NCBI GenBank assembly: GCA_030448265.1
Contig: JAUJNG010000003.1
Span: 1-64,000 of the forward strand
Length of the DNA stretch: 64,000 nt
Source of the DNA: Abditibacterium sp.
Lineage (GTDB): Bacteria; Armatimonadota; Abditibacteriia; Abditibacteriales; Abditibacteriaceae
Direction of reading: 5' to 3'
Shown here piece by piece: positions 7,989 through 61,678 of this stretch (its first letter is position 1; every line of letters begins with the position of its first letter). The notes beneath the pieces were generated by a model that saw nothing but the letters and a program-made list of their open reading frames with translations, did no database searches and had not been told where the DNA came from. The translations under genes were made by a program, and so were the position numbers.

Positions 7989-8024
7989 GCGCGCGCGAAA
8001 TGCAAAAAAGACGCCCTTTTTTGG

Positions 8025-8102
8025 GGAATACGGGAGACGGAATACGGGAGACGGGATATGCGAGACGCGCTCAGCCCTCCCGTATTCCGTCTCCCGTATT
8101 CC
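8025..8102. repeat. GACGGAATACGGGA-family palindrome, copy 1
   Basis: Perfect 26-bp arms (8025-8050 with 8077-8102), each built from two copies of a 14-base unit GACGGAATACGGGA. It abuts the yvcK stop codon. Related copies lie at 10333-10404 and 15187-15257. Confidence 0.92.
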
Positions 8103-9392
8103 TCAAGCCCGTGCCGCGATGCGAAAAATCGCGCCCGCCAGTTTTTGCGAGTTGTGGCGCACCACGTTCGACACGTCGATGAAGGGGCCGTGAATCGGGC
8201 GCACGCCGAGCATTTCGATTTCGGTGTCGTCGGGCGCGATATACCTCGCGCCTTTGGCCTCGTAGCGCGCCAGGACATCGGGCGGCACTTTGCCGGAATT
8301 GAGCAGGACGTGGGTAATCACGCCCTGGCCGATGTGATGAATCAGGGCGCGCACATGGTCGGCGGCGGAAAAATCGAGGGTTTCGTTGGGCTGCGTCATC
8401 ACGTTGCAAACGTAAATTTTCGGGGCTTTAGAGGCTTTGATGGCGGCGGCGATTTCCGGCACCAGCAAATTCGGAATGATCGAGGTGAAAAGCGAGCCTG
8501 GGCCGATAATGATGATTTCGGCTTCTTCAATGGCTTTGACGGCGCCAGGAAGCGGTTTGGGATCGGCGGGCACCAGAGAAACCGCCCTGATTTTCAGTGA
8601 TTCGTTGACCTTGACCTGCCCCTCGATGCGCGTGCCGTCTTCCAATTCGGCGGCGAGGCGCACATCATCGAGAGTCGAAGGCAAAACCCGACCCCGAATC
8701 GCCAGAACTTTGGAGGTTTCGCGCACTGCCTGGTCGAAATCGCCGCTCATCTCGAACATCGCCGCCACGATCAAATTGCCCAGCGAATGGCCCTTCAACA
8801 CGCCCAGACCCTCGAAACGATGCTGGAAAAGCTGCATCATCAAAGGTTCGGCCTCGGCGAGCGCCGCGATGCAGTTGCGTAAATCGCCAGGCGGCAGCAT
8901 CCCGTGTTCGCGCAGCATTCCCGAAGAGCCGCCGTCGTCGGCCATGGTCACAATCGCGGTGATGTTGCTTGAATAGTGCTTCAAGCCGCGCAGCATCGTC
9001 GAAAGTCCGGTTCCGCCGCCAATGGCCACGATGCGCTCTCCGGTGTCAAGGCGGCGCCGTTTGAGCGCGGTTTCGAGAAAATCGGCGCGCGTTTCGCTGG
9101 AATAAACCCGTTCGACCGCTTTATAAACGCCGCGCAGCCCAATCGCCACCGCCGCCACGCCCAGCACCAGACAGCTAAAGCCCAGCGCGACCGTATCGGG
9201 CAAACGCCCCAAGATGCGGTCGGCGATGGTGATGACCCAGAGCGAAAAATCGACCGCGACGTAAGCGAAAGAGAGCGCCGCGCCGAAAATGGTGAGCGCC
9301 AGACCCAGCAGCGCCACCACGCCCCAGCGCTTGACGCCCAGGCCAACCGTGAGCCACTGCATCGCGCGCACTCCGCGCGGCTGGAGTTTCAT
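8103..9392 (-). CDS. yvcK: YvcK/CofD-like family protein (gluconeogenesis factor)
   Basis: Cytoplasmic-domain protein of the YvcK family, which in Bacillus binds UDP-sugars and is needed for normal cell shape and growth on gluconeogenic carbon. The 429-residue product has two N-terminal membrane helices (about residues 20-75). These are followed by the nucleotide-binding GGGTGLSTMLRGLK, the signature MADDGGSSG, PPGDLRNC, and GPGSLFTSIIPNLLV. Its ATG overlaps the rapZ stop by four bases, giving the common rapZ-yvcK order; the third usual partner, whiA, is not in the window. The membrane anchor is a known variant of the family. Confidence 0.93.
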   Translation of the reverse strand: MKLQPRGVRAMQWLTVGLGVKRWGVVALLGLALTIFGAALSFAYVAVDFSLWVITIADRILGRLPDTVALGFSCLVLGVAAVAIGLRGVYKAVERVYSSETRADFLETALKRRRLDTGERIVAIGGGTGLSTMLRGLKHYSSNITAIVTMADDGGSSGMLREHGMLPPGDLRNCIAALAEAEPLMMQLFQHRFEGLGVLKGHSLGNLIVAAMFEMSGDFDQAVRETSKVLAIRGRVLPSTLDDVRLAAELEDGTRIEGQVKVNESLKIRAVSLVPADPKPLPGAVKAIEEAEIIIIGPGSLFTSIIPNLLVPEIAAAIKASKAPKIYVCNVMTQPNETLDFSAADHVRALIHHIGQGVITHVLLNSGKVPPDVLARYEAKGARYIAPDDTEIEMLGVRPIHGPFIDVSNVVRHNSQKLAGAIFRIAARA

Positions 9393-10332: not shown

Positions 10333-10404
10333 AGACGGGAGACGGAATACGGGAGATGGAAGGAGCGGTTTCAACTCCCGTCTCCCGTATTCCGTCTCCC
10401 GTCT
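10333..10404. repeat. GACGGAATACGGGA-family palindrome, copy 2
   Basis: Perfect 24-bp arms (10333-10356 with 10381-10404). It lies immediately upstream of rapZ and its right arm reaches into the stop codon of the membrane-protein gene. Confidence 0.9.
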
Positions 10405-10786
10405 ACTTCTTTTCCTTTTCGCCGCTAAACAATCCCGACGCCAGCGAGTTGACGACCGACATCACCAGAGCGCCCAGCATCGCGGGCCAGAATCCGCGCA
10501 CTTCAAAGCCGTCGAGCGCGCGCCCGACGCCGTAAAAAAGCGCCGCGTTGAGCAGAAGCGACAGCACCAGATTCCACAGTCCCAGCGTGATGCAGGAAAG
10601 CGGAAGGGTCAAAGCCCCCGCAATAAACATCAAAATCGGCTTGACGAGCGCGTTGGCGACGCCCAGAACCAGCGCCGCGATGAGGGCCGCCGTCGCGCCA
10701 TTGACTTGAATCGCGCCCCCCGACGCGCCCGCGATGAAAAACAGCGCGACGGCGTTGATGATGAGTCGAACGAAGAAAGAAAGCAT
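10403..10786 (-). CDS. Small four-helix membrane protein (Mycobact_memb/'phage holin' family type)
   Basis: A 127-residue integral membrane protein with four hydrophobic helices, including LIINAVALFFIAGASGG and the family-like ANALVKPILMFIAGALTLPL. The C-terminus is charged (SGEKEKK). It resembles the small membrane proteins often labelled 'phage holin family' in non-phage contexts; there is no lysis cassette here, so a holin role is not supported. The ATG at 10786 starts the first helix; the open frame extends to 10903 only through a mobile-element-like repeat. Confidence 0.75.
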   Translation of the reverse strand: MLSFFVRLIINAVALFFIAGASGGAIQVNGATAALIAALVLGVANALVKPILMFIAGALTLPLSCITLGLWNLVLSLLLNAALFYGVGRALDGFEVRGFWPAMLGALVMSVVNSLASGLFSGEKEKK

Positions 10787-13140: not shown

Positions 13141-13175
13141 AAAGGCCGTCGTGTTCGATGAACACGACGGCCTTT
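13141..13175 (+). terminator. Hairpin downstream of the Arg/Glu-rich gene
   Basis: AAAGGCCGTCGTGTTC pairs perfectly with GAACACGACGGCCTTT around a three-base loop; the T run after it is short. Confidence 0.75.
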
Positions 13176-13195: not shown

Positions 13196-13306
13196 GCAGC
13201 GAATAAATTCACCGCAACAACGGCGCAAAACCTGCCTTCGCAGGTTGAGGCCCCCAGTCCGCGCCGGCGGACTTCGCGTCGTTGTTGCGGTGAATTTATT
13301 CGCTGC
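13196..13306. repeat. Cloverleaf repeat element A, copy 1
   Basis: Perfect 27-bp outer arms (13196-13222 with 13280-13306, beginning GCAGCGAATAAATTCACCGC) enclose two small perfect hairpins, 13229-13246 (AACCTGC/GCAGGTT) and 13256-13273 (AGTCCGC/GCGGACT). The same element in opposite orientation lies at 54994-55104. No coding content. Confidence 0.92.
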
Positions 13307-14195: not shown

Positions 14196-14284
14196 AGCCA
14201 CGGAGAACACAGAGGACACACAGAGAGGCACAGAGAAAAGGAAAGAGAAATCCTCTGTGCCTCTCTGTGTGTCCTCTGTGGCTA
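14196..14284. repeat. CACAGAG-superfamily fold-back, copy at dcd
   Basis: Arms of ~31 bases are made of CACAGAG-type short direct repeats and their complement (left ~14209-14236, right ~14253-14283). It lies between the divergent DUF58 and dCTP deaminase genes and so occupies both promoter regions. Confidence 0.85.
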
Positions 14285-15186: not shown

Positions 15187-15257
15187 AGAAGACGGAATAC
15201 GGGAGACGGAATACGGGAGCACACATTCCGTATTCCGTCTCCCGTATTCCGTCTTCT
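15187..15257. repeat. GACGGAATACGGGA-family palindrome, copy 3
   Basis: Perfect 30-bp arms (15187-15216 with 15228-15257) and an 11-base loop. Each arm holds two copies of the 14-base unit. Followed by TTTTTT, so it may terminate tRNA-Phe transcription. The aminotransferase ATG is only six bases beyond. Confidence 0.93.
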
Positions 15258-15262
15258 TTTTT

Positions 15263-33012: not shown

Positions 33013-33113
33013 TTTTAACCACAGAGACACAGGGACACAGAGACACAGAGACACGGAGAGAGAAAAGAGAAATCTCTCCTTGATTCTCTGTGTCTCCGTG
33101 GTTTGAATTTAAG
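33012..33113. repeat. CACAGAGACACAGAG fold-back between ubiD and ubiE
   Basis: Left arm 33012-33061 and right arm 33071-33113 consist of CACAGAGA-type direct repeats and their complement (outer TTAACCACAGAGACAC). It includes the ubiD stop and touches the ubiE start. Confidence 0.85.
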
Positions 33114-36101: not shown

Positions 36102-36286
36102 CGCTCCGCGGCCCTCACCCGCCTTCGCGGAACTCAGGCACCCTCTCCCGCAAGCGGGAGAAGGATTAGCAGTTTTCCCTGTCACTTTGAGGAACCGCAA
36201 AAGTCGGAGTTACTACTGCTAATCCTTCTCCCGCTTGCGGGAGAGGGTGCCTGAGTTCCACGAAGGCGGGTGAGGGCCGCGGAGCG
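36102..36286. repeat. 72-bp-arm inverted repeat between hydrolase paralogues
   Basis: Arms 36102-36173 and 36215-36286 pair with one mismatch. They contain CCCTCACCCGCCTTCGCGG, an internal CCCGCAAGCGGG hairpin and AAGGATTAGCAGT. Same core as the repeat at 37662. Confidence 0.95.
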
Positions 36287-37661: not shown

Positions 37662-37875
37662 CCCGCCTGCGGCGGCCCTCACCCGCCTTCGCGGAGCTCA
37701 GGCACCCTCTCCCGCAAGCGGGAGAAGGATTAGCAGTGTTCAGTTCTACTCCGCTTTTGCGGTTCCTCAAATGCAGCTCCTCAAAAGTGAGAACTGAACA
37801 CTGCTAATCCTTCTCCCGCTTGCGGGAGAGGGTGCCTGAGCTCCGCGAAGGCGGGTGAGGGCCGCCGCAGGCGGG
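37662..37875. repeat. 86-bp perfect inverted repeat
   Basis: Arms 37662-37747 and 37790-37875 are exact reverse complements over 86 bases with a 42-base loop. The central ~62 bases of each arm match the arms of the repeat at 36102. It separates the hydrolase gene start from the divergent typA. Confidence 0.97.
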
Positions 37876-39768: not shown

Positions 39769-40056
39769 ATGCGTTGGCTTTTGGCTGGTATCGCCTTTAT
39801 ATTCGTTATTTCGTTTTGGGGAATGCTTGCTAACGGCGCGCCTCCCTTTTACGCGGCATATTATGGTCTTGTTGTTTTGGTAGCTGTTCCAGTTTTGCTG
39901 TTCATTATCGTTGCATCGAATGGGATTGCAGTCGCAGGTGTCTGGATAATGGCCAAGGTTCTCGGTTACTTCCTCCTCTACGTCCTATCTCTTTGGTTTT
40001 CTATAAAAGAGCTAATTGTAAAGCAGCTGGAACGATATCGAAGTGAAAGAAGATAA
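39769..40056 (+). CDS. Small membrane protein downstream of typA
   Basis: A 95-residue protein with three hydrophobic helices (about 3-25, 28-52, 55-75) and a basic C-terminus (KQLERYRSERR). It starts two bases after the typA stop with GGAAG upstream, so it should be cotranscribed and coupled. Its base use is visibly more A+T-rich than typA. No family is recognised. A terminator begins at its stop codon. Confidence 0.65.
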   Translation: MRWLLAGIAFIFVISFWGMLANGAPPFYAAYYGLVVLVAVPVLLFIIVASNGIAVAGVWIMAKVLGYFLLYVLSLWFSIKELIVKQLERYRSERR

Positions 40057-40087
40057 AAAGCGGGCGCGAAATTTCGCGCCCGCTTTT
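40056..40087 (+). terminator. Terminator of the typA operon, repeated type
   Basis: AAAAGCGGGCGCGAAA and TTTCGCGCCCGCTTTT form a perfect stem. Near-identical hairpins follow the next two small genes. Confidence 0.92.
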
Positions 40088-40183
40088 CGTCTGCCGAGTT
40101 TGACTACTAAAAAACGAAAAATCTACGCAAAATGTGTAGATTTTTCGCTTGTGGGATTCAAAGAGAAGAGAGACAATTGCTCT

Positions 40184-40462
40184 ATGACAAATCCCAGTTC
40201 TCAATCGTCGGATCCGTCCAAAGCGGATAACGAATCCAGAAAACGATTTTTTCGCGCGTTGACTCTTTTTGTCGTCGCTGTTACCATCGCACAAATCGCG
40301 TTGGTGGCGGTTACTAAAAGCGGCGCAGATTCTCTCATGGGCGGTTTGTCCAGTTTGTTTCTGGTTTTTGCCTCCCAGGAGGAAAGAATTGAGAAACTGT
40401 GGTGCTTTACTGCTCTTGCTTTCGCGTGTTTAGCCGGTTCCTTTTGGTTTACATATGGCTGA
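40184..40462 (+). CDS. Small two-helix membrane protein
   Basis: A 92-residue protein with a polar N-terminus (SSQSSDPSKADNESRK) and two hydrophobic segments (about 25-45 and 70-90). A+T-richer than the window average. No strong ribosome-binding site. It is bounded by two copies of the same terminator hairpin, so it is a separate unit. Function unknown. Confidence 0.5.
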   Translation: MTNPSSQSSDPSKADNESRKRFFRALTLFVVAVTIAQIALVAVTKSGADSLMGGLSSLFLVFASQEERIEKLWCFTALAFACLAGSFWFTYG

Positions 40463-40465
40463 GAA

Positions 40466-40501
40466 CCAAAAGCGGGCGCGAAATTTCGCGTCCGCTTTTG
40501 G
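40466..40501 (+). terminator. Second copy of the repeated terminator hairpin
   Basis: CCAAAAGCGGGCGCGAAA pairs with TTTCGCGTCCGCTTTTGG with one G-T position. Confidence 0.88.
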
Positions 40502-40522
40502 TTTAAACTGCTGGGAAACCTC

Positions 40523-40918
40523 ATGCGAAATCTGCTTCCTCTCGAATGGCAGCGCCGCCTGGATCTCGCGCAGCGCAGTTCGTCCTGGCGCGCTCAATTG
40601 GAAGCGCGTGTTTTGCGTTTTCTGCTCCGGCGCTATGGCGAACCGAGCGCAATGACGCCCGTTCCCGACCGTCCCTTGTGGCGCGGCCCGTTGCCGCACG
40701 GTCGCGCGAAAATGGTGCTTCCGCCGGAGCAACAACGCCAGCGATTGCAACATTTGGCGGTAGTGGGAAGCGAAGCACAAGTCGAACCGATAACGGCCTC
40801 TGGAAGAAAAATTGAGGAAGCGGCCTGGCGCGAAATGGAGCGCCGCCGCAAGCAACAGGAGCGCCATTGCAAGCAACAGGAGCGCCGCCGTAAGAAGCAG
40901 GAGCGCGGCTACTGGTGA
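40523..40918 (+). CDS. Hypothetical basic protein with KQQER repeats
   Basis: A 131-residue Arg/Gln-rich protein without a signal. The C-terminal ~30 residues repeat a RRKQQER-type unit (RRRKQQERHCKQQERRRKKQ), encoded by visible 18-21-base tandem repeats near 40845-40905. GGGAA lies ten bases before the ATG. A third copy of the terminator hairpin lies 70 bases downstream. No family recognised. Confidence 0.5.
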   Translation: MRNLLPLEWQRRLDLAQRSSSWRAQLEARVLRFLLRRYGEPSAMTPVPDRPLWRGPLPHGRAKMVLPPEQQRQRLQHLAVVGSEAQVEPITASGRKIEEAAWREMERRRKQQERHCKQQERRRKKQERGYW

Positions 40919-40987
40919 AAAACAGACATGGCGAGAAATTTACTTCGCGCGGCGGCGCTCCGACTTGAGGACGGCACCCAAAACCAG

Positions 40988-41017
40988 AAGCGGCGCGAAA
41001 TTTCGCGCCCGCTTTTG
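40988..41017 (+). terminator. Third, degenerate copy of the repeated terminator hairpin
   Basis: AAGCGGCGCGAAAT pairs with ATTTCGCGCCCGCTT with one bulged base. Confidence 0.7.
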
Positions 41018-41064
41018 CTTTGACTGCCAATGACAACCCGCGCGATTTGAGCGAAAATTAGAAC

Positions 41065-41481: not shown

Positions 41482-41698
41482 AAAAACCACAGAGACACGG
41501 AGACACAGAGAAATTCAATAGACCTCTTGCAAAAGTGTAGAGCTTTGGATGTTCGTAGGTTTGTAGTAGCGCCGCGAGGCGCGTGTGGAAAGCGTCCACA
41601 GGGTGTCCACGCGCCTCGCGGCCCGCTACTACAAACCGCTTTCGCTACTTTTGCAAGAGGTTTAATAAAAAATCTCTGTGTCTCTGTGGTTTTTCTAA
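41479..41698. repeat. CACAGAGACACGG fold-back interrupted by a MITE-like element
   Basis: Outer arms 41479-41512 and 41673-41698 (TTAGAAAAACCACAGAGACA and complement) belong to the CACAGAG superfamily. Its loop holds the 142-bp element listed separately. Confidence 0.88.
41521..41662. mobile_element. MITE-like element with GACCTCTTGCAAAAGT ends
   Basis: Terminal repeats 41521-41536 and 41647-41662 match in 15 of 16 bases. Inside is a second long stem (TTTGTAGTAGCGCCGCGAGG with its complement). ACCTCTTGCAAAAGT ends are typical, from memory, of IS5-group derivatives. No open frame; target duplication not clear. Confidence 0.75.
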
Positions 41699-45519: not shown

Positions 45520-45527
45520 AGTAGGTA

Positions 45528-45620
45528 GCCACAGAGAACACAGAGGACACACAAAGAGGCACAGAGTTTTTAATTCAATTTCTCTGTGCCTCTTTGTGTG
45601 TCTTCTGTGTTCTTTGTGGC
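45528..45620. repeat. CACAGAG-superfamily fold-back between larB and larC
   Basis: 39-base arms (45528-45566 with 45582-45620) pair with few mismatches. The right arm supplies the last ~17 codons of larB. Confidence 0.88.
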
Positions 45621-46367
45621 TTTTTGAGTTCGTAAGATGGAAGCCACGAAAGCCGCCGCGCCGAAACCGTTGTCGATGTTGACCACCGCGATGCCGTTGG
45701 CGCACGAATTGAGCATTCCGAGCAGCGCCGCCAAACCGCCAAACGCCGCGCCGTAGCCGACGGAGGTTGGAACCGCGACGACGGGAACCGAAACCAGGCC
45801 CGCCACGACGCTGGGCAGGGCGCCTTCCATGCCCGCCACGACGATGAGCGCGCGGCAGTCGCGGATTTGGGGCAGGGTTTCGAGCAAACGATGCAGTCCG
45901 GCGACGCCGACATCGGAAATGCGTGTCACCTCGGCGCCCATCGCTTCGAGGCAGATCGCGGCTTCGTCGGCGACGGGCAAATCACTCGTTCCGGCGCACA
46001 AAACGGCGGCGCGGCCCAGATGGGCTGCTTTTTCGCCTTCGATGAGAATGATGCGCGCTGAATGTTCGTAGCGCGCGGCGGGAATGTCGCTTTGGACGGC
46101 TTCAAAGGCTTCGAGCGAGGCGCGCGTGACCAGAACGGTGTCGCCGCGCCCGTATAAAGTGGCGGCGATGGCGGCGATTTGCGGCGGGGTTTTTCCCTGT
46201 CCGAAGACGACTTCGGGAAAACCCTGGCGCAGGGCGCGGTGGTGATCGACTTTGGCGAATTCGAGGTCTTCAAAGGGCAGATCGCGCAGCGTTTCGAGCG
46301 CGGATTCGACGGACTTTTCGCCGTTTTGGACGTGTTCGAGCAGGGCGCGCAGGCGTTGCGGAGACAT
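45570..46367 (-). CDS. larB: LarB, pyridinium-3,5-biscarboxylate nucleotide synthase
   Basis: Carboxylates and hydrolyses nicotinate adenine dinucleotide in the first step of nickel-pincer cofactor synthesis. The 265-residue protein has the PurE-like C-terminal domain: [44 protein letters not shown], and [20 protein letters not shown] with [19 protein letters not shown]. After the family end (FVASILR) the frame continues ~18 residues ([14 protein letters not shown]...), encoded by the fold-back repeat, so the tail is probably acquired. Neither larA nor larE is in the window. Confidence 0.94.
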
Positions 46368-54993: not shown

Positions 54994-55104
54994 AGCAGCG
55001 AATAAATTCGCCGCAAGACAACAAAGTCCGCCTACGCGGACTGGAGGCCCTCAACCTGCGAAGGCAGGTTTTGCGCCGTTGTTGCGGCGAATTCATTCGC
55101 TGCT
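54994..55104. repeat. Cloverleaf repeat element A, copy 2 (inverted)
   Basis: Outer arms 54994-55016 and 55082-55104 pair with one mismatch; the two inner hairpins AGTCCGC/GCGGACT and AACCTGC/GCAGGTT occur in the reverse order of the copy at 13196. It separates the peptidase start from the AAA+ ATPase end. Confidence 0.92.
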
Positions 55105-60820: not shown

Positions 60821-60915
60821 AGCCACAGATCACACAGATGGATTCACAGATGAACACAGATCCATTCAAAAAACATCTGTGTCCATCTGTGAATCCATCT
60901 GTGTGATCTGTGGCT
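60821..60915. repeat. CACAGATCACACAGATG fold-back
   Basis: Arms (left from AGCCACAGATCACACAGATG at 60821; right ending 60915) pair over about 40 bases with one or two mismatches. It begins at the base after the Nudix stop. Confidence 0.92.
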
Positions 60916-61599: not shown

Positions 61600-61678
61600 A
61601 CCACAGAGACACGGAGGCCCAGAGAAAAAAAGGGGGTGTCAACCTCAAAAACCTCTGTGTCTCCGTGTCTCTGTGGTT
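61600..61678. repeat. CACAGAGACACGGAG fold-back between pncA and pncB
   Basis: CCACAGAGACACGGAG (61601-61616) pairs perfectly with CTCCGTGTCTCTGTGG (61661-61676). Confidence 0.9.

Follow-up and report, generated by a model that had tools for sequence, protein, structure and literature searches.

Two inverted copies of a folded element

We wished to know what kind of element forms the two cloverleaf-like structures in the window (the whole stretch of 64,000 nucleotides that was analysed), whether its folded form is kept, and what could have spread it. The first-pass annotation had described two inverted copies, each with a long outer stem and two inner hairpins, and folding as single-stranded DNA confirmed this design. 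Fold z-scores ranged from -9.05 to -14.28 against dinucleotide shuffles for both strands of both copies, and 0 of 200 shuffles folded as well. Together with the paired changes counted below against shuffles, these z-scores ruled out chance or composition as the source of the fold. The coordinates given for copy 1 were kept; those for copy 2 (54994-55104) were one base too wide at each end and were corrected (Table 1).

We observed that the exchange of A-T for G-C noted in the outer stem is real (copy 1, TTCACCGC/GCGGTGAA; copy 2, TTCGCCGC/GCGGCGAA). It falls on columns 16-99 of our alignment of 30 copies (28 distinct rows), where A-U occurred 21 times, G-C and G-U three times each and another combination once. 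Two points were absent from the annotation: pairing is weakened in copy 2 (GAATGAATTC versus GAATTTATTC), and one inner stem of this copy is mismatched on its 3' side.

Table 1. Positions of cloverleaf A and its parts in the window
Feature	Position	Strand	Remarks
Cloverleaf A, copy 1	13196..13306	+	111 bp; bare; both arms of AACAACG type; GAAT end hairpins
Cloverleaf A, copy 2	54995..55103	-	109 bp; bare; hybrid, 5' arm of AACAACG type, 3' arm of another type
Copy 1, outer (REP-like) hairpin, 5' arm, GAATAAATTC	13201..13210	+	from sequence; kept within arms across the family
Copy 1, inner hairpin 1, AACCTGCCTTCGCAGGTT	13229..13246	+	from sequence, fold and family alignment
Copy 1, inner hairpin 2, AGTCCGCGCCGGCGGACT	13256..13273	+	from sequence, fold and family alignment
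Copy 1, outer (REP-like) hairpin, 3' arm, GAATTTATTC	13292..13301	+	from sequence; within-arm pairing in the family

The window also carries other repeats. Two large, near-identical hairpins with CTCCCGCAAGCGGGAG lie at 36102-36286 and 37662-37875, and their arms of 86-87 bases are 91-100% complementary. Repeats of the CACAGAGACACGGAGA kind are scattered over 14196-14280, 33020-33075, 41488-41527, 45527-45621, 60821-60915 and 61602-61641, and several of them form inverted repeats. There are further three copies of an inverted repeat of AGACGGAATACGGGAG units (8021-8106, 10333-10412 and 15187-15262) and three copies of a GCGGGCGCGAAATTTCGCGCCCGC-like palindrome within 1 kb (40056-41019).

Size of family A

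The annotation implied two copies. The pair in the window is real, and the family is far larger than that. A DNA search of the window's own genome, a 4.95-Mb assembly of 43 contigs that is 93% complete, detected at least 40 copies (40 of 142 candidates scored). From 30 of these copies we derived a covariance model (R1), which gave at least 148 matches on both strands together (150 of 5331 first-look candidates scored). With this model we located family A at no fewer than 98 places, which is a lower bound, with 97 distinct sequences. The 98 do not include a weak match (C15:1918, E 0.003), and one sequence found at two places was merged. Six of the 97 distinct copies could not be parsed for their ends and were dropped beforehand, so that counts of arms and ends refer to 91 copies. 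The original observation holds, and it is larger than described.

Pairing within and between arms

The annotation had argued from co-variation that the folded form is maintained by selection or by the copying mechanism, and more copies with paired changes support this. The full structure paired in 97.2% of cells across 28 distinct rows. Cells changed on both sides numbered 27 versus 9.6 in shuffles that ignore the relatedness of copies, with 0 of 500 shuffles as high. The count of pairs with two-sided change was less striking (7 vs 4.9, 19 of 500 shuffles as high), and the pair-type measure was also near the edge (38 of 500).

Each arm ends in a small hairpin of its own, GACTnnAGTC or GAATnnATTC, which was intact in 172 of 182 arms. 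The two types (98 and 74 arms, respectively) differ by one compensated pair, and arms mixing GACT with GAAT were found only 3 times in 182. These end hairpins paired within the arm in 99.7% of cells and had 16 cells changed on both sides versus 4.8 in shuffles; pairs with two-sided change numbered 2, the same as in shuffles, and of the five measures those on pairs and on pair types did not exceed the shuffles. The arms also matched each other in 75 of the 91 parsed copies, and in 7 copies both local hairpins were intact though the arms disagreed. Arms drifting apart, which the annotation had named as evidence against its proposal, were seen in a minority (16/91). After the within-arm counts we gave up pairing between arms as the chief constraint, as the best-surviving pairing is inside each arm. 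The co-variation within the ends suggests which hairpin the enzyme would read.

The loop bases of the local hairpin, which are unpaired there, were the same in both arms of 77 of 91 copies, where 51.6 would be expected. Besides selection, copying of arms or common ancestry therefore plays a part and adds to the between-arm signal. One could go further and ascribe the co-variation mainly to arm-to-arm copying or shared ancestry and not to selection for the fold. The loop-base agreement fits this, as do the 9 of 91 copies that are hybrids with one arm of each subfamily and the small excess of two-sided changed pairs over shuffles blind to relatedness. Against it stand the 7 copies that keep both local hairpins despite disagreeing arms, as well as the rarity of mixed arms, and we find this explanation doubtful. 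The folded form is real and kept.

Y1 transposase genes between half-cloverleafs

The annotation remarked that the shape recalls REP-type transposition substrates. This was borne out by Y1 (HUH) transposase genes lying inside the split design in relatives and in cyanobacteria. In Armatimonadota relatives such genes adjoin the elements, and the order is a 5' half-cloverleaf (outer hairpin, stem strand, inner hairpin), the gene and a complementary 3' half; the gene thus sits between the positions of inner hairpins 1 and 2. Four loci are plain split cloverleafs (L256, L266, L267 and L274), and two have complete elements on both sides of the gene (L254 and L328). At L254 (G010, C10) one transposase gene is flanked on either side by three tandem cloverleafs that repeat every 128 bases. 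The phylum of the window's genome is Armatimonadota: the transposase of G008, a genome assigned to the same phylum, is 100% identical to an NCBI protein named for an Armatimonadota bacterium.

The search for genes of the transposase clade described in the next section gave matches in 61 of 201 genomes, and loci were taken for the best only. Outside the window's genome, R1 recognised elements beside 6 of 21 clade loci and 0 of 10 other Y1 loci. The same-family genome G002 holds a broken clade gene between two elements recognised by the family-A model. The end of its L266 gene has at least 36 matches in that genome (40 of 72 candidates scored). They form 16 inverted pairs, of which one encloses the gene (495 bases apart), 14 are joined with a spacing of 16-21 bases and one is overlapping. 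Since these ends enclose the gene at one place (495 bases) and only a spacer of 16-21 bases at 14 others, the joined form amounts to the gene-bearing form minus its gene.

We then scored the complementarity of the 300 bases on either side of each gene against mispaired flanks. In 19 of 33 clade genes the score passed the 99th percentile of a mispaired control that is inflated by ends common to several loci; 14 failed, among them L076 of the window's genome, and L254 scored low (31) despite its complete elements on both sides. The second, independent set comprised all 21 loci fetched from 21 Armatimonadota genomes with genes not examined before. Here 18 of 21 genes passed the 99th percentile, 16 lay above every mispaired value and 3 failed. 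Complementary flanks were found at 1 of 7 IS200 loci and, relative to their own control, at 7 of 8 other Y1 genes. Therefore complementarity alone is no marker of the clade's subclass (1.2).

Enzyme class

The clade signature is DHVH, WQ and Y---Q--HH. In a protein alignment of 20 rows H50, H52, W90, Y110, Q114 and H118 were invariant (20/20), and D49, Q91 and H117 were present in at least 90%. The clade profile matches the solved ISDra2 and ISHp608 transposases, which is what we take some of the matched structure entries to be. In NCBIfam both L076 and the IS200 genes of the window's genome fall into the IS200/IS605 family, and the REP-associated family scores far below its cut-off. The Y---NP motif of the TnpA-Y1 class 2 enzymes of REPINs was not found; the clade has Y---Q--HH in its place.

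A 2018 survey (Quentin et al. 2018, PMC6006769) gives DH[IV]H, WQ and Y---Q--HH for TnpA-Y1 subclass 1.2, to which, judged by motifs, the clade would belong. The survey describes the subclass as having no REP and generally no terminal IS200 structures, and as hosted mostly by Cyanobacteria and Bacteroidetes (PMC6006769). The clade agrees with it in motifs, in the small size of the protein, in the few copies per genome and in its presence in Cyanobacteria; it differs in that most of the tested genes have complementary, half-cloverleaf-like flanks and that Armatimonadota and Chloroflexota are among the hosts. A literature search, with subscription papers, preprints and supplements largely outside it, returned no REP-like or terminal partner of subclass 1.2, and an earlier description of one may exist. 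The split cloverleaf is a directly testable candidate substrate for this subclass, described in 2018 without REP or insertion-sequence features, and the element probably gives a poorly understood enzyme group its DNA partner.

Y1 genes in the genome of the window

We found no gene bearing A-type ends in the window's genome; as the assembly is 93% complete, one may have been missed. Family A copies there are therefore probably orphans of a lost or unassembled enzyme that moved them in the past, or they are served in trans. The one clade gene of this genome, L076, has no family-A element at its locus. Directly upstream of it (L076 1893-2068, C7:135727-135902) lies cloverleaf family B, which has the same plan as A and another sequence, and which occurs at 8 near-full-length places and as two fragments. 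The stretches retrieved around the nine other Y1 loci contain a family-A element in three cases, of which two seem to be due to insertion into the element.

IS200 copies seem to be inserted in the TTTATTC/TTCATTC part of cloverleaf arms at L071 (near 1969) and L079 (near 1405; contigs C5 and C33). We considered IS200 as the partner gene and rejected it: the adjoining Y1 genes that were examined are IS200, and L071 and L079 look inserted into arms. The IS200 proteins form a group separate from the clade. The cloverleaf system does not show the combination of a near-identical multi-copy transposase, Y---Q and separate end hairpins that marks IS200/IS605 subclass 1.1.

It has to be asked whether family A depends for its movement on L076 or an IS200 transposase acting in trans. 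That L076 is the one clade gene found, and that three of the nine other loci have a family-A element, is consistent with such service. L076, however, adjoins its own family B, two of the three loci look like IS200 inserted into cloverleaf arms, and IS200 proteins stand apart from the clade, which makes movement by either enzyme improbable.

The same design in other bacteria

The search pattern consisted of the window's two inner hairpins and is uninformative on hosts with other inner hairpins. Among named genomes 40 stretches matched it, 21 of them from one Tildeniella nuda assembly. One stretch comes from an Anaerolineales (Chloroflexota) bacterium and 39 from organisms that are named as, or taken to be, Cyanobacteria. 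Most stretches have stem strands and an outer hairpin on each side. Near the hairpin foot these carry GTAG, as in GTGTAG-CCGCGATTTTAATCGCC, or, in the Anaerolineales copy, GTTG.

Half-cloverleaf flanks surround clade genes in Nostoc sp. FACHB-973, UBA11371, Microseira, Plectonema, Trichocoleus and the Anaerolineales bacterium. Of 13 cloverleaf-bearing named genomes, 11 have a clade match at E 1e-10, in 8 of them at E 1e-39 or better. The other two, Tildeniella and Phormidium sp. LEGE 05292, gave no clade gene at E 1e-10. The split-cloverleaf reading accounts for an abundant repeat kind in at least three phyla.

Genomic setting of the copies

Both window copies are intergenic. Copy 1 has an ORF lacking any Pfam match on one side and a DUF58 gene on the other, with a terminator-like hairpin (13141-13175) just before it; copy 2 directly follows the stop codon of an AAA ATPase gene and precedes a peptidase-like gene. 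Such positions, the stable fold (computed as DNA) and the paired changes would suit a host element acting in RNA or DNA, such as a terminator, an mRNA stabiliser or a supercoiling site, for which spread was secondary. The distribution is patchy: under filters stricter than those used for the window's genome, R1 matched in 15 of 60 relatives, with 54 matches in the same-family genome G002 and 0 in the same-genus genome G001. The only matches above the Rfam threshold in the window were two tRNAs, which rules out a known RNA family, and the gene-bearing forms explain the design without any host role. We therefore judge a host element to be very improbable.

Shells and target duplications

Some copies lie within terminal-inverted-repeat shells, of which we distinguished three types. 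In the window's genome they accompany 21 of the 30 copies whose arms are of AACAACG type, a single one of the 52 whose arms are of other types, and one of the 9 hybrids. A shell end is thus present in 23 of 91 parsed copies, and 68 have none of the three types within 45 bases. Shell types one and two occur 60 and 58 times in this genome, while reversed control patterns gave 0 matches. The same shells enclose unrelated palindromic cores, and one shell is empty. We presume IS5 and IS630 to be the names for such shell ends.

The empty-looking T2 shell is a 22-base palindrome with TTA on both sides (L133 1501-1522, C18:113109 of the window's genome). At 41521-41662 of the window a T1 shell (GACCTCTTGCAAAAGTG, TA-flanked) surrounds a different palindromic core that is rich in GCGCCTCGCGGC.

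The annotation advised a check of the flanks for target duplications, and the outcome was divided. Of the 18 shelled copies in Tildeniella, 17 are bordered by identical 3-bp TNA duplications (25% when mispaired). In the window's genome duplications at T2 shells are weak (7 of 19 equal vs 21% when mispaired), and at T1 shells TA was equal in 12 of 17 vs 71% when mispaired, which is uninformative, since nearly all outer dinucleotides are TA. The 68 bare copies there showed no duplication beyond chance: 2 bp were equal in 2 (3.4 expected), 3 bp in 1 (0.97 expected) and 4 bp or more in 0. Their target preference is a weak base bias only. No empty site for a bare copy was found when the homologous regions of window copy 2 were compared in G001, G002 and G003; the ATPase gene aligns in G001 and G002, and the next gene does not.

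That the element is nothing but the centre of conventional miniature inverted-repeat transposons, which DDE transposases (taken to be IS5- or IS630-like) would move, and has no mobility of its own, agrees with the shelled AACAACG-type copies, the other cores in the same shells and the Tildeniella duplications, but is highly improbable given the 68 copies without shells, the near absence of shells beside other arms, the bare copies without duplications and the ends that flank Y1 genes.

Proposed mechanism

Cloverleaf A is built like the joined ends of a Y1 (HUH) transposon without its gene, and we consider it quite likely to be a REPIN-like non-autonomous element spread as single-stranded DNA by a subclass 1.2 enzyme. 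In each end an outer hairpin (the REP-like part) is followed inwards by a strand complementary to the opposite end and by an inner hairpin. Binding of the enzyme would take place at the outer hairpins, its tyrosine would cut and rejoin the ends, and the product would insert into single-stranded DNA without target duplication. Such insertion is known for IS608 and has been proposed for REPINs. One subfamily would have been captured as the core of terminal-inverted-repeat shells and then copied with them by DDE-type transposases. Transposition, strand choice and recognition by the enzyme are the steps that we infer. From the shelled copies one sees how a mobile element can end up as the centre of a second one.

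A broader proposal, to which we give belief and disbelief equal weight, is that subclass 1.2 enzymes move an entire lineage of single-strand transposons with cloverleaf ends in Armatimonadota, Chloroflexota and Cyanobacteria, whose gene-less copies have two engines, being spread by Y1 enzymes and then made repeatedly into cores of DDE-moved miniature elements, in at least two phyla.

Comparison with known systems

We compared the element with three known systems. The first are REPINs, the REP dimers served by RAYT (TnpA-REP). As described in the literature (PMC3116915, PMC6006769, PMC3733652), these are likewise small, palindromic, dispersed, gene-less repeats of high copy number with two inverted end hairpins. 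Family A has all of this, with its at least 98 places and with local hairpins intact in 172 of 182 arms. REPINs further have no target duplication, a feature that our 68 bare copies share, and ends that flank a single-copy Y1 gene with its own repeat family; here the same repeat flanks a Y1 gene in relatives and cyanobacteria and was not found to do so for family A in the window's genome. Cloverleaf A differs from REPINs in its two further inner hairpins and the long stem between the ends (PMC3116915, PMC6006769, PMC3733652), in the foot, which is GT[AG]G in REPINs (PMC6006769, PMC3733652), and in the enzyme motif, Y---NP against Y---Q--HH (PMC6006769).

The foot in the window's genome is mainly TTTG, GTTG or CTTG, and GTAG or GTGG was seen in 0 of the 181 arms listed (of 182); GTAG does occur in cyanobacterial copies and at some Armatimonadota loci. 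Since neither the GT[AG]G foot (in the window's genome) nor a class 2 enzyme was found, we class the element as a variant that works like a REPIN.

IS200/IS605 elements such as IS608 and ISDra2 share a homologous HUH/tyrosine transposase and hairpins near the ends. The cloverleaf ends differ from theirs in being mutually complementary and in having two hairpins apiece. Copies without a gene are also far more numerous than genes, and the IS200 proteins of the window's genome are a separate group.

The shelled copies recall Anabaena variabilis, in which REP dimers were reported to lie inside long palindromes and no palindrome of this kind was found to lack REPs (Di Nocera et al. 2013, PMC3733652). 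The position of these GTAG-15 dimers in mid-palindrome resembles that of our shelled copies. Our copies differ in that there are several shell types, shells around other cores and one empty shell, which together with the 3-bp duplications in Tildeniella point to transposon ends.
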